The notes under the pieces are model-generated. The model saw nothing but the letters and a program-made list of their open reading frames with translations. It was not told where the DNA came from and made no database searches. The translations under genes and the position numbers were made by a program. From Candidatus Anaerostipes avistercoris (GTDB taxonomy: Bacteria; Bacillota; Clostridia; Lachnospirales; Lachnospiraceae), in the NCBI GenBank assembly GCA_019119895.1, contig DWWD01000016.1, positions 40,379-104,378 of the forward strand: a stretch of DNA of 64,000 nt, given 5' to 3'. The stretch's first letter is position 1, and each line of letters starts with the position of its first letter. Positions 21,992 to 48,224 of the stretch are shown in pieces.

Positions 21992-23101
21992 ATGAGATAT
22001 AAAAAATGCCCAATTTGTGATGAAAAATTAAGAAACGGAGTCTGCCCTGTCTGTGGCTATGATTTTAAACGACTGGAGAAGAAACAGAATCCGGAGAGCC
22101 GGCACTGGGATGTGCTGGAGCAGGATCCAGGGACACAGGAACCGGTCTTTGTCCATGAGGAAAAGAAATGCGGGAAAAAGAAGAAAGACCGGAAAAAATG
22201 GAGCCGGTACAAAAAGCGGATGGAAACTCAGAGGGTCAGAAGAAATACGGCTGGAAGAAGAAATTCCAGAAGGACCGGTCTCATCATTCTGATCGTGATT
22301 ATCCTGCTGGTCTCCGGTATACTGCCGTTCATTGGAAATATGGTTTTCCAGGGAATTTCCGATGTGAAGGATGAAGTTCAATACCGGTTTTTTGACGAGA
22401 CCGATTCAGGCGACACGGTGGAATCAGATCCGTACAGAAATACGACTTATGCCCTGGATACTCAGGGAGAACATTTCGAGACAGAACTGACGGCGGGAGA
22501 ATATCTGGTAGGAGCTGATCTTCCGGAAGGAATTTATCAGGTCTCCGTTGAGGAAGGGAAAACCGCGCTTCTGGCGAGAAATCAGGAACAGAGGATCAGC
22601 CTTTATGATTTCTATAAAGCAGATGCGGAGGATGACGATGGATTTTATAAAAAATCAGAGGAGATCCGGCTGTATACGGGAACTTATCTGAGAATTGACG
22701 GAGCAGGAACCATGCGGCTTGAGACGGACAGTGCAAAGGGAGAATATCAGCTGGTGGGGAATCCACTGAAAGAAAATGTTGCAGTCAAAGGAACTATGAC
22801 GGCAGGGAAAGACTTCCCGGCAGGTTCTTACGATATTGTCTGCAGAAAGAACCGGGGCACGGTTCAGACCCTCTACCAGATTACAGAAAACGGCGCTGAA
22901 TATACTACAGATTATAATATGATTGCCAGCGGCGCCAATGATGTGTGGGGAGATCCGGAAAGATATCAGCAGGTGTATTTTTATGACGGAATGCGGATTA
23001 AAGTACCGGATGATATGGAAGTGGAGCTGGAACCGTCTGTCTATACCCGCCCTGAAAATGCGGTGGAATATCGTTTCTATGAACAGACGAACGGTAATTG
23101 A
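21992..23101 (+). CDS. Zinc-ribbon single-pass membrane protein with duplicated extracellular domain
   Basis: CPICDEKLRNGVCPVCGYDF zinc ribbon, one TM, two related G.Y.VG.D.P.G.Y segments. Confidence 0.65.
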   Translation: MRYKKCPICDEKLRNGVCPVCGYDFKRLEKKQNPESRHWDVLEQDPGTQEPVFVHEEKKCGKKKKDRKKWSRYKKRMETQRVRRNTAGRRNSRRTGLIILIVIILLVSGILPFIGNMVFQGISDVKDEVQYRFFDETDSGDTVESDPYRNTTYALDTQGEHFETELTAGEYLVGADLPEGIYQVSVEEGKTALLARNQEQRISLYDFYKADAEDDDGFYKKSEEIRLYTGTYLRIDGAGTMRLETDSAKGEYQLVGNPLKENVAVKGTMTAGKDFPAGSYDIVCRKNRGTVQTLYQITENGAEYTTDYNMIASGANDVWGDPERYQQVYFYDGMRIKVPDDMEVELEPSVYTRPENAVEYRFYEQTNGN

Positions 23102-23145
23102 CAGGATATGGCTTGAAAATACAGAGGGAGTATGATACATTTAAT

Positions 23146-23240
23146 AGTAATGGAATATCCGGAGCAGAGAGGCTCCGGCGGGCTGTACCGTGGAATTGAG
23201 ATTCTGCCCCGAGGCACCAAAGGCCCCGGGGTTTTTTCTT
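23146..23240 (+). promoter_or_regulatory. Leader with T-box-like antiterminator/terminator, probably degenerate
   Basis: AGTA, AGAGAG and GGCTG motifs, GGG-CTGTACC-GTGGAAT..ATTCTG-CCCC antiterminator-like fold, then CCCCGAGGCaccaaaGGCCCCGGGG-TTTTTT terminator. Confidence 0.5.
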
Positions 23241-23284
23241 AGAAAACAGCGGCGGTGCCGGCAGAAGATGAAGGAGGAAAAAAC

Positions 23285-23578
23285 ATGGCAAATCATATTG
23301 ATGATGAAACGATTGAATATGTCGGAATCCTTGCCAAGCTGGAATTGTCCGGTGAGGAAAAGGAACAGGCAAAAAAAGATATGGAAAGCATGCTGGATTA
23401 TGTAGATAAATTGAATGAACTGGATACCAGCGGAGTGGAACCGATGTCTCATGTATTTCCGGTGCGCAATGTGTTCCGGGAAGATGTAGTGACCAATGGA
23501 GACGGAAGCGAAGATACGCTGGCAAATGCACCGGAGGCACAGGATAATTCTTTCGTAGTGCCGAGAACGATCATATAG
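23285..23578 (+). CDS. gatC: Asp/Glu-tRNA amidotransferase subunit C
   Basis: MANHIDDETIEYVGILAKLELSGEEKE...; immediately before gatA; ATG 23285 with RBS. Confidence 0.93.
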   Translation: MANHIDDETIEYVGILAKLELSGEEKEQAKKDMESMLDYVDKLNELDTSGVEPMSHVFPVRNVFREDVVTNGDGSEDTLANAPEAQDNSFVVPRTII

Positions 23579-23588
23579 GAGGCAGGAC

Positions 23589-25064
23589 ATGAGTATTTTA
23601 GATTGCACTGCCCTTGAACTGGGCAGAAAGATAAAAGAGAAAGAAATTACTGCTGTGGAGGCGACAAAAGCCGCTCTGGAACAGATGAAGGCCGTGGAAG
23701 ACAAAGTGCATGGATTTGTGTCCTACGATGAGGAAAGCGCCTTAAAGAGAGCAGAGGAAGTACAGAAAGGAATCGAGGAAGGAAAATACACAGGACCGCT
23801 GGCGGGAGTGCCAATGGCCATTAAGGATAATATCTGCACGAAAGGATATGCGACTACCTGCAGTTCCAGAATCCTTGAGAATTTTGTGCCGACCTATTCC
23901 GCTCAGGCAGTGGAGAATCTGATCGAAGCGGGAGTGATCTTCCTTGGAAAAACAAATATGGATGAGTTTGCCATGGGAAGCACCACAGAGACTTCTGCCT
24001 TTGGAGAAACCAAAAATCCATGGAATCTGGAGAAGGTTCCGGGAGGTTCTTCCGGAGGGTCAGCTGCGGCAGTTGCGGCCAATGAGTGCTTTATGGCTCT
24101 TGGATCTGATACCGGCGGATCCATTCGTCAGCCGGCGTCTTACTGCGGCGTGACTGGAATGAAACCGACTTACGGCACGGTTTCCCGATATGGACTGATC
24201 GCATATGGCTCTTCTCTGGATCAGATCGGACCGATCGCGAAAGATGTATCAGATTGTGCGGCTCTTTTGGAAGTGATCGCTTCCCATGACCCGAAAGATT
24301 CTACTTCCATCGGAAGAGATGAATATGATTTCACCAGCGCCCTGGTAGACGATGTAAAGGGAATGAAAATCGGAATTCCGAAAGATTATTTCGGTGAGGG
24401 ACTGGATCCGGAAGTAAAAGACGCGGTGCTGGCTGCGGCAAAAGCGCTGGAGGCAAAAGGCGCGGTTGTGGAAGAATTTGAACTTGGACTGGTAGACTAT
24501 GCGATTCCTGCATACTATGTCATTGCGGCAGCGGAGGCAAGTTCCAACCTTTCAAGATTCGACGGTGTAAAATACGGATACAGAGCCAAAGAGTATGAGG
24601 GGCTTCACAATATGTACAAGAAGACCAGATCCGAAGGATTCGGAGCGGAAGTAAAACGCCGTATTATGCTGGGATCTTTCGTTTTAAGTTCCGGATATTA
24701 TGACGCGTATTATCTGAAAGCATTAAGAACAAAAGCGCTGATCAAGAAAGAATTCGACAAAGCATTTGAGAAATATGATATGATCCTGGGACCTGTCGCT
24801 CCGACAACGGCGCCGAAACTGGGAGAAAGCCTGAGCGACCCGATCAAGATGTATCTGGGTGATATTTATACGATTTCTGTCAATCTGGCCGGACTTCCGG
24901 GAATTTCCCTGCCGTGCGGCAAGGATAAGAATGGAATGCCGATTGGTCTGCAGCTGATCGGAGACTGCTTCCAGGAGAAGAAGATCATCCAGGCAGCTTA
25001 CGCATTTGAGCAGACAAGAGAATATGAGGCTCCGGAGATTGCAAAAGGAGGTGCCAGAGCATGA
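23589..25064 (+). CDS. gatA: Asp/Glu-tRNA amidotransferase subunit A
   Basis: Amidase signature GGSSGGSAAAVAANECFMALGSDTGGSIRQPAS. Confidence 0.97.
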   Translation: MSILDCTALELGRKIKEKEITAVEATKAALEQMKAVEDKVHGFVSYDEESALKRAEEVQKGIEEGKYTGPLAGVPMAIKDNICTKGYATTCSSRILENFVPTYSAQAVENLIEAGVIFLGKTNMDEFAMGSTTETSAFGETKNPWNLEKVPGGSSGGSAAAVAANECFMALGSDTGGSIRQPASYCGVTGMKPTYGTVSRYGLIAYGSSLDQIGPIAKDVSDCAALLEVIASHDPKDSTSIGRDEYDFTSALVDDVKGMKIGIPKDYFGEGLDPEVKDAVLAAAKALEAKGAVVEEFELGLVDYAIPAYYVIAAAEASSNLSRFDGVKYGYRAKEYEGLHNMYKKTRSEGFGAEVKRRIMLGSFVLSSGYYDAYYLKALRTKALIKKEFDKAFEKYDMILGPVAPTTAPKLGESLSDPIKMYLGDIYTISVNLAGLPGISLPCGKDKNGMPIGLQLIGDCFQEKKIIQAAYAFEQTREYEAPEIAKGGARA

Positions 25065-26500
25065 GAAAACAGTATGAGGCCGTCATTGGACTGGAAGTCC
25101 ATGTAGAACTGGCAACAAAGACAAAGATTTTCTGTGGATGCAGCACAGAATTCGGTGGGGCGCCGAATACCCATACATGTCCGGTGTGTACCGGAATGCC
25201 GGGATCCCTTCCGGTATTGAATAAACAGGTGGTGGAATATGCAGTCGCAGTGGGACTGGCTGCCAACTGTGACATCACCCAGAACTGCAAATTTGACCGT
25301 AAGAACTATTTCTATCCAGATAATCCTCAGAATTATCAGATTTCCCAGCTGTATCTGCCGATCTGCAGAAATGGTAAAGTGGAAATTGATGTGGATGGAA
25401 ATAAGAAAGATATCAGAATCCATGAGATTCACATGGAAGAAGATGCCGGAAAGCTGATCCATGACCCGTGGACCGGAGATTCTCTGGTAGACTTTAACCG
25501 CTCCGGCGTTCCTTTGATCGAGATCGTGTCAGAGCCGGATATGCGCTCTGCCGATGAGGTTATCGCTTACCTGGAAAAATTAAGACTGATCATCCAGTAT
25601 CTGGGCGCGTCAGACTGCAAGCTGCAGGAGGGTTCCATGAGAGCGGACGTGAACTTATCTGTGAGAGAAGAAGGAGCAGAAGAGTTCGGAACAAGGACAG
25701 AGATGAAGAACCTGAATTCTTTCAAGGCCATTAAGAGAGCCATTGAAGGAGAAATGGAACGACAGATCGATCTGATCGAAGCCGGTGAGGAAGTAGTGCA
25801 GGAGACACGCCGTTGGGATGACACCAAAGGAGAATCTTTCGCCATGCGTTCCAAAGAGGATGCTCAGGATTACCGTTACTTCCCGGATCCGGATCTGGTG
25901 CCGGTGGAAATCAGTGATGAATGGATCGCCCAGATCAAAGCAGCTCAGCCGGAATTCAGAGATGAAAAGAAAGCCAGATACAAAGAGGAATATGACCTGC
26001 CGGACTATGATATTGATATTATAACCGGTTCCAAACATATGGCGGATTTATTCGAGGCGACCATTGACCTCGGGTCTGATCCGAAAGAAGTATCCAACTG
26101 GGTGATGGGAGAGACCATGCGTCTGGTCAATGAATCAGAAATGGAACTGGATGATGTGGCGTTTGCGCCGGAACATCTGGCAAAACTGATCGAGATGATC
26201 AAGAACAATGAGATCAACCGAAAAGTCGGAAAAGAAGTGTTCGAGAAGATTTTCAGAGAAAATATTGATCCTGCGGCATATGTAGAAGAGCACGGATTAA
26301 AATCTATGAGTGACGAAGGAGCGCTCCGAGCGGCAATCGAAAAGATTGTAGCAGAGAATCCGAAATCTGTAGAAGACTTTAAATCCGGTAAGAAAAAAGC
26401 TAAAGGATTCCTGGTGGGACAGACGATGAAAGCGACACAGGGAAAAGCAGATCCTGGAATCGTAAACAAGATTTTGGACGAAATTCTGTCACAGATTTAA
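25061..26500 (+). CDS. gatB: Asp/Glu-tRNA amidotransferase subunit B
   Basis: YEAVIGLEVHVEL, CPVCTGMPGSLPVLN, DFNRSGVPLIEIVSEPD. Confidence 0.97.
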   Translation: MRKQYEAVIGLEVHVELATKTKIFCGCSTEFGGAPNTHTCPVCTGMPGSLPVLNKQVVEYAVAVGLAANCDITQNCKFDRKNYFYPDNPQNYQISQLYLPICRNGKVEIDVDGNKKDIRIHEIHMEEDAGKLIHDPWTGDSLVDFNRSGVPLIEIVSEPDMRSADEVIAYLEKLRLIIQYLGASDCKLQEGSMRADVNLSVREEGAEEFGTRTEMKNLNSFKAIKRAIEGEMERQIDLIEAGEEVVQETRRWDDTKGESFAMRSKEDAQDYRYFPDPDLVPVEISDEWIAQIKAAQPEFRDEKKARYKEEYDLPDYDIDIITGSKHMADLFEATIDLGSDPKEVSNWVMGETMRLVNESEMELDDVAFAPEHLAKLIEMIKNNEINRKVGKEVFEKIFRENIDPAAYVEEHGLKSMSDEGALRAAIEKIVAENPKSVEDFKSGKKKAKGFLVGQTMKATQGKADPGIVNKILDEILSQI

Positions 26501-26621: not shown

Positions 26622-27419
26622 ATGAGAGAATATAAAGGAATTGTATTTTTTGATTATGATGGAACAACAGTAGACGAAGTAGACCGAATTAAAACCGCAA
26701 CGCCGACAACGGTGGAATCACTGCAAAAGTTAAAACAAAACGGATATCTGACGATGCTGTGTTCCGGGCGTACAAAACGTTTTCTGGAGATGGATATCGA
26801 TAAATTTCAGGGAGCCATTACCTGCAATGGAGCTCATACGGAGGCAAACGGAGAGATTTTCCGTGACATTACCATTCCGGACGAGCTGTTATTTGATGTG
26901 ATCAACAAGTATTTTCCGCGGGATACGATCATCCAGCTGGAAACTCAGGACGTGACCTATTATCTTCATAATGACGCGGATTTTTTCCAGTATTACTGCC
27001 GGCTGTTCAGCCTGCCGGAGAGATGGTATGCTCCATGGAAATTCCGGACAAAAGATAATCATATTAATAAATTGGTGTTAAATTACAAAGATCCGCAGGT
27101 GCTGGAAGATTTCAAGGAAGAATATAAGGATGTATTCCAATGCGCGAAGCATGTGCGGGAAAATTTTATTGATATCACTCTGAAGGGTGTCACAAAGGGA
27201 GACGCCATTGAAGAATTGATCGAAGAACTGGGAATCGATAAGAAAGATACCTATGCATTTGGAGACGCAGATAACGATGTTGAGATGATGAAAGTGGTCG
27301 GAACCGGAGTTGCCATGGGAAGACACAGTGATGCAGTAGGCGAAGTGGCGTCAATGGTAACCGGAACCGTAAAAGAAGAAGGCATCACACAGGCATTGGA
27401 GAAATTGGGGCTGATATAA
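26622..27419 (+). CDS. HAD superfamily hydrolase (Cof-type), copy 1
   Basis: FFDYDGTTVD motif I, GDADNDVEMM motif IV. Confidence 0.88.
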   Translation: MREYKGIVFFDYDGTTVDEVDRIKTATPTTVESLQKLKQNGYLTMLCSGRTKRFLEMDIDKFQGAITCNGAHTEANGEIFRDITIPDELLFDVINKYFPRDTIIQLETQDVTYYLHNDADFFQYYCRLFSLPERWYAPWKFRTKDNHINKLVLNYKDPQVLEDFKEEYKDVFQCAKHVRENFIDITLKGVTKGDAIEELIEELGIDKKDTYAFGDADNDVEMMKVVGTGVAMGRHSDAVGEVASMVTGTVKEEGITQALEKLGLI

Positions 27420-28219
27420 TGGGAAAATATAAAGGAGTCGTATTGTTTGATTATGATTTTACGACGGTAGACAGAGATGACGGGATTCTGGTGGCATCCC
27501 AGAAGACCATAGAATCTTTAAATAAACTCAAAGAAAACGGATATCTGACGATGCTGTGTTCCGGGCGGAGCAAACGTTTTCTGGAAGATGATATTGACAA
27601 GTTCCAGGGGGCGATCACCTGTAATGGAGCTTACACAGAGATTGAGGGACGTTCGGTTCGTGATATCCATATCCCGCAGGATGTAGTGCAAAAGGTAATC
27701 AGAGAGTATGATACGGAAGAATCAGCGCTCCATCTGGAAACCCAGGATGTGACATATTACATTGAGCACGGACAGGATTTTTATAAAGGATTCCGTTTGT
27801 TCCTGGATCTCCCGGAACACTGGTTCGCGCCGTGGAGTGAGCATAAAGAGGGAGAACATATCACCAAGATCGTCATGAACTGCACGAAAAAAGAAATTAT
27901 GGATCAATTCCGGGAAGAATTTGCCGGGCAGCTGCAGTGTGTACCTCCGTTTGAAGACAAGCTGATTCTGGATGTTATGTCAGTGGGAATTACAAAAGGA
28001 GAGGCGATCGATTATCTGCTGGATCAGTTTGAAATTGACCGGAAAGACAGCTATGCATTTGGTGATTCTGACAATGATGTGGAAATGCTGAAGACTGTCG
28101 GCACCGGCGTGGTGATGGGAAAGCACAGCAAGGCAGCAGGAGAGGCTGCAGCGATGTTTACCGGAACAGTAAAAGAAGAAGGAATTACCACAGGATTGGA
28201 AGCGCTAGGATTGATTTAA
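27419..28219 (+). CDS. HAD superfamily hydrolase (Cof-type), copy 2
   Basis: Paralogue of the preceding ORF; LFDYDFTTVD, GDSDNDVEML. Confidence 0.86.
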   Translation: MGKYKGVVLFDYDFTTVDRDDGILVASQKTIESLNKLKENGYLTMLCSGRSKRFLEDDIDKFQGAITCNGAYTEIEGRSVRDIHIPQDVVQKVIREYDTEESALHLETQDVTYYIEHGQDFYKGFRLFLDLPEHWFAPWSEHKEGEHITKIVMNCTKKEIMDQFREEFAGQLQCVPPFEDKLILDVMSVGITKGEAIDYLLDQFEIDRKDSYAFGDSDNDVEMLKTVGTGVVMGKHSKAAGEAAAMFTGTVKEEGITTGLEALGLI

Positions 28220-48051: not shown

Positions 48052-48135
48052 TGCCGATGGCGAGATTCGAACTCGCACGAGCATACACTCACTGCGACCT
48101 GAACACAGCGCGTCTGCCAATTCCGCCACATCGGC
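48052..48135 (-). tRNA. tRNA-Leu (CAG)
   Basis: Acceptor GCCGATG/CATCGGC + A; anticodon arm CTGTG-TTCAGGT-CGCAG; long variable arm; TpsiC GTTCGAATC. Confidence 0.93.
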
Positions 48136-48139
48136 AAAG

Positions 48140-48224
48140 TGCAGTTGAGGGGACTTGAACCCCTACCCAGTTAACCCGGACTAGATCCTTAGTCTAGCGC
48201 GTATGCCAATTCCGCCACAACTGC
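48140..48224 (-). tRNA. tRNA-Leu (AAG)
   Basis: Acceptor GCAGTTG/CAACTGC + A; anticodon arm CTAGA-CTAAGGA-TCTAG; GTTCAAGTC T-arm. Confidence 0.92.

Follow-up and report, generated by a model that had tools for sequence, protein, structure and literature searches.

Does the short sequence that precedes the gatCAB operon of Candidatus Anaerostipes avistercoris descend from a T-box riboswitch and, if so, what could be left for it to do without the part that reads tRNA? The locus lies in a 64,000-nucleotide stretch of contig DWWD01000016.1 (‘the window’, to which all coordinates refer), where a gap of 183 nt (23102–23284) separates the stop codon of a 369-aa open reading frame (23101) from the gatC ATG (23285). 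The original prediction had placed an internally deleted, decaying T-box in this gap, which it put at 180 nt. A leader of ~90 nt (~23148–23238) is predicted upstream of gatC, and its parts are listed in Table 1. The promoter-like site matches the consensus at 9 of 12 positions, which alone is not above the shuffle background, and is 92% identical in both sister species of the window species; transcription would begin near 23148, with ~11 nt of transcript ahead of the hairpin. No promoter is visible between the terminator and the RBS, which lie <40 nt apart, so gatCAB transcripts would have to read through the terminator.

Table 1. Predicted elements of the leader and the genes that follow it (window coordinates).
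Feature	Position	Strand	Basis
Promoter-like TTGAAA-17-TACATT with TG extension	23113–23141	+	consensus scan
7-bp hairpin CCGGAGC-AGAGAG-GCUCCGG, Stem III position	23159–23178	+	fold; R1 alignment with T-box Stem III
T-box-type antiterminator CGGG / 7-nt bulge CUGUACC / GUGGAAU-UGAG-AUUCUGC / CCCG	23179–23211	+	prefix fold; homology to relatives' gatC T-boxes
Intrinsic terminator CCCCG-A-GGC...GCC-C-CGGGG + T6, overlapping the antiterminator	23207–23237	+	minimum-energy fold
gatC	23285–23578	+	TIGR00135, 93.6 bits
gatA	23589–25064	+	TIGR00132, 639.8 bits
gatB	25061–26500	+	NF004012, 687 bits

Eleven genomes of the genus were compared, namely that of the window species (G000) and ten congeners, among them the sister species G005 and G001. 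The open reading frame directly upstream of the gap (21992–23101) is without an NCBIfam match and is only 57–75% identical in the sisters, while G006 and G008 match its first 57 residues only; it is a fast-evolving gene. Elsewhere in the window, two adjacent HAD-type hydrolase genes (26622–28219), both of which match one single gene in G002, G004 and G006–G010, look like a tandem duplication, and two adjacent tRNA genes are found on the minus strand (48052–48224).

Direct recognition of a T-box in the window fails. The Rfam T-box covariance model (RF00230), which the original prediction had proposed as a check, gave it no support: there was no match in the window at gathering level, and none in a local scan of 23060–23320 up to E=10. 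Only sub-threshold matches to unrelated RNAs were obtained for other RNA families at the leader. A T-box search of the 11 genomes recovered 8–10 T-boxes per genome, with no match at gatC of G000, G005 or G001. In five of the ten congeners (G002, G007, G004, G009 and G010), by comparison, a complete T-box lies directly before gatC (69–90 bits, E 7e-19 to 2e-13, confirmed with alignments), with a specifier region that reads GAAC followed by A (Asn-type); because the Rfam gathering cut-off is 93 bits, gathering-level scans miss these T-boxes. The genus itself therefore includes relatives that have an intact T-box here.

The link between these T-boxes and the window leader is made by alignment. 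The window leader aligns with the gatC T-box of G002 with a score of 53, against 37 for the best of 1000 dinucleotide shuffles, and the leader of G001, the most diverged sister, reaches 38 (attained by 0/1000 shuffles), with no significant alignment to the T-boxes of G004, G009 and G010. A covariance model built from the three short leaders only (R1; G000, G005 and G001) was run on the window and ten 19-kb gatC regions, where the matches that followed its training sequences were exactly those five T-boxes of gatC (E 5e-7 to 0.07) and an antisense hit on one of the training sequences. When R1 was applied to 396 genomes of the family, nine non-self matches were obtained, four of which are true T-boxes in other genera: one stands directly before gatC (L176) and three before AspRS genes (L175, L180 and L183), two of the latter being of the aspartate--tRNA(Asn) type, with gatC following in L180. 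The other five matches are weak and are not T-boxes by Rfam. Taken on sequence comparison, the resemblance to T-boxes exceeds chance, and the leader is homologous to the 3′ half of the gatC T-box, sharing descent with the complete T-boxes at the same locus; the predicted internal deletion is thereby borne out. Two other origins were considered and rejected. A leader-peptide attenuator would use a 30-codon frame (23150–23242) that is open in the window and is not conserved, since it meets a TGA after six codons in G005 and runs in a different frame in G001. Short DNA matches elsewhere in the genus, which might have indicated a multi-copy element, do not include a second copy, and the five of them that were read look like coding sequence (e.g. 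...GVGIYRGIEKIT...).

What has survived is the decision-making part of the riboswitch. RNAfold was applied both to the transcript cut at the CCCCG (the prefix) and to the complete leader. The prefix folds into a T-box antiterminator with a 7-nt bulge, in a bracket pattern identical to that of the gatC T-boxes of G004, G009 and G010, and the minimum-energy state of the complete leader is the terminator (−36.0 versus −27.1 kcal/mol with the GGGC/GCCC helix forced), whose stem (23207–23231), followed by a tract of six T/U (23232–23237), reuses the CCCG of the antiterminator. The antiterminator-like fold and the competing terminator of the original prediction are both confirmed in this way, and the two structures are mutually exclusive in the window. 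In a sweep of transcript length, the antiterminator helix is partly occupied at 66–72 nt (0.1–0.4 in G000 and 0.3–0.9 in G005), and terminator occupancy exceeds 0.95 once the terminator is complete. Each of the three short-leader species has the terminator as its final fold; in G001 the antiterminator is degraded and is not the predicted fold at any length.

Only ~30 nt lie between the predicted start and the antiterminator, taken up in part by a single hairpin of 7 bp, the one aligned with Stem III, and this leaves no Stem I, specifier or Stem II/IIAB; the lack of room for a normal Stem I had been noted in the original prediction. The words that had been offered as T-box hallmarks (AGTA, GCAGAGAG and GGCTG) are not remnants of Stem I, being either variable between the species or parts of other elements: AGTA sits at the predicted transcription start and reads AATA in G005, AGAGAG is the loop of the hairpin and differs in the sisters, and GGCTG falls within the antiterminator, where it forms 5′ arm and bulge. 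The surviving piece is T-box-derived as proposed, and consists of the decision module (Stem III-position hairpin, antiterminator and terminator) rather than of Stem I scraps. The replacement of TGGN by CTGT was read correctly. In the bulge, canonically UGGNACC, the UGG has become CUG(U) in G000 and G005 and CCG(U) in G001, whilst the ACC half is kept in G000 and G005, a change that would leave one Watson–Crick pair and a possible wobble to NCCA. With the sensing parts absent and the bulge altered, tRNA sensing should be lost. The ileS T-box of the genus presents the reverse condition: in 7/7 genomes read (L192, which is G000 contig 14, 3600–6000, and L204–L209) its bulge is unusual (UGGUUUG, UGGUAUA, UGGUUUA or UGGUUAG), with UGGU kept and ACC replaced.

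In a tree computed from GatCAB and three neighbouring proteins, G000, G005 and G001 group with a support of 100 and nest in a clade whose other members, G006, G008 and G003, lack a leader altogether, whilst full T-boxes are found on the deeper branches (G002/G007 and G004/G009/G010); the node that orders the clade members is weak (57). The simplest history would be that an ancestral gatC T-box was reduced in the clade of the window species and wholly lost in some of its members. The reduced leader has nevertheless not simply decayed, because its identity (85/91 or 93% between G000 and G005; 75/91 or 82% with 11 gap positions between G000 and G001) is far above that of the four-fold sites of gatCAB (58% and 52%, respectively) and of the spacer 3′ of the terminator (76% and 50%), a comparison that rests on three closely related sequences. 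The terminator is 94% identical in both sisters with all 8 pairs kept, and all 7 pairs of the hairpin are kept in the most diverged sister, with changes in the loop (AGAGAG in the window; AATGAG and AAAGAG in the sisters). The second helix of the antiterminator (A2) retains 4/7 pairs in G001, as judged with hand-placed helices. Decay, as originally proposed, is accordingly seen in the tRNA-contacting bulge and in the G001 antiterminator, but not in the strongly conserved remainder. Selection seems to hold the hairpin and the terminator and to be relaxed on the antiterminator, which is what a fixed attenuator would predict; general promoter and terminator function may explain some of the conservation.

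The pathway in which GatCAB acts offers a context for the loss of the sensor. GatCAB, a tRNA-amidating enzyme, is universal in the genus and GlnRS is encoded in 11/11 genomes, so the main task of the enzyme should be the conversion of Asp to Asn. A T-box whose specifier text is GAAC and whose bulge is GUGGUACC precedes aspS in 9/11 genomes (L188, L193 and L197–L203); UGG is retained in the aspS T-boxes of the genus, and all three species with the short gatC leader have an Asn-type one. The identity of the gene behind it as AspRS was established for G000 and G001, and this AspRS would also charge tRNA-Asn. In G002 and G007 (L195–L196) there is no aspS T-box, only a short leader without the T-box bulge, and the full gatC T-box is kept. 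At least one Asn-type T-box is present in the AspRS–GatCAB pathway of every one of the 11 related genomes, which is a pattern and not a test. AsnRS (asnS) is patchy (7/11 genomes). Its gain was rejected as the cause of T-box loss for want of a clean correlation: it is absent in G001 and G008, which have no gatC T-box, and also in G002 and G007, and is present in G004, G009 and G010, where the T-box is kept.

The explanation that we favour, and regard as probable with ample room for doubt, is that the leader is a T-box-derived, tRNA-blind constitutive attenuator of gatCAB, with the sensing of Asn left to aspS. On this view an ancestral tRNA-Asn T-box riboswitch of gatCAB has kept its 3′ decision module and lost both the entire 5′ domain that reads tRNA (Stem I and its specifier, and Stems II/IIAB) and the UGG of the bulge. 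Transcription from the predicted promoter would yield the ~90-nt leader, in which the antiterminator would form transiently and, with no tRNA to hold it, give way to the terminator; a constant fraction of polymerase would pass it, and this fraction would supply gatCAB expression. Uncharged tRNA-Asn would be sensed by the intact aspS T-box, at the preceding step of the same pathway, where tRNA-Asn sensing probably survives, and the gatC stump would probably still set gene dosage without sensing tRNA. Two observations count against this account. G000 and G005 keep an intact antiterminator geometry, for which an attenuator that is only constitutive would have no use. It is also strange to find a strong terminator ahead of an operon that the cell needs, unless termination is leaky or controlled, and most of all in G001, where AsnRS is missing.

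It is these same features that invite a new signal. The antiterminator/terminator pair might have been placed under the control of a protein, a small RNA or other RNA, a metabolite or a new tRNA contact, making a T-box derivative without Stem I and specifier into a ~90-nt regulated attenuator. The conservation of the whole leader, hairpin included, and the presumed need to express gatCAB through the terminator fit such a switch, but the antiterminator is degraded in G001, the hairpin loop and the bulge are among the variable parts, so that no conserved unpaired binding site is visible, and no similar leader was found in 385 genomes of other genera except true T-boxes and weak, unconfirmed matches. 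We give this reading a small but real chance. An insulator, retained chiefly so that transcription of the upstream operon stops there, is an unlikely reading of the terminator. In its favour, the last upstream frame stops 11 nt before the gatC promoter, abutting it, and no terminator-like site was found on the plus strand from 21900 to that promoter. Against it, the terminator follows the gatC promoter and has to halt gatC transcripts too, it has been lost in G008 and G003 with no terminator-like site before gatC, and the conservation of the hairpin would be left unexplained; the fixed attenuator may, as a further advantage, insulate the upstream operon.

A neutral relic, drifting towards the disappearance already reached in G003, G006 and G008, would account for the mutated bulge and the eroding antiterminator of G001, and is made very unlikely by a degree of conservation so far above that of four-fold sites and the adjacent spacer. 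Less likely still is a minimal T-box in which the tRNA acceptor end binds the altered bulge without Stem I: the antiterminator fold and the ACC half speak for it in G000 and G005, but the pairing left to NCCA is scant, there is no specifier and the bulge differs between sisters. Least probable of all is that the ~90-nt terminated transcript acts as a small regulatory RNA in its own right. It is conserved and has a predicted promoter of its own, a 5′ hairpin and a terminator, but variation is greatest in its unpaired parts, the place expected for a seed, and it is always found directly before gatC.

Shortened T-boxes and T-boxes of transamidation genes have precedents. Truncated-Stem I T-boxes of the ileS type are without the top of Stem I and keep the specifier and UGGN, and the T-box of the Clostridium acetobutylicum transamidation operon reportedly has overlapping GAA/AAC (Glu/Asn) codons. 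The latter is described as complete and as binding tRNA-Asn and tRNA-Glu (Saad et al. 2013, as related in PMC4052509); going by that account, it resembles the present system in controlling tRNA-dependent transamidation genes and in the GAAC specifier text that it shares with the congeners' gatC T-boxes, and differs in that the window leader has no specifier. The ileS-type T-boxes of Actinobacteria are likewise shortened (PMC4810234, PMC7778990), but mostly act on translation, whereas the window leader has lost all of Stem I and UGG. A box before an MFS transporter was also called degenerated, in a figure legend, and no analysis of its remaining parts or their conservation was found; among the genomes of 2008 no T-box was reported before amidotransferase genes (Wels et al. 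2008; PMC2494555). The literature search found no report of such a Stem I-less T-box derivative. The closest comparison is with the complete gatC T-boxes of the congeners, with which the leader shares its place, a homologous antiterminator and terminator, the 7-nt bulge geometry and the overlapping CCCCG, and from which it differs in length (~90 nt against ~240 nt), in the missing 5′ stems and specifier, in its CUG bulge and in the lack of an Rfam match.

One genus thus displays, at one locus, three states of a riboswitch: a complete T-box, a conserved stump without a sensor, and nothing. The intact aspS T-box in the same pathway suggests why the gatC sensor could go. Family covariance models miss such derivatives, which is a warning for surveys that use them. 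If a new signal does act on the leader, it would be a case of an expression platform re-used after its ligand domain was lost; more generally, the locus makes it testable whether selection can retain an expression platform as a fixed attenuator once the ligand domain has gone.
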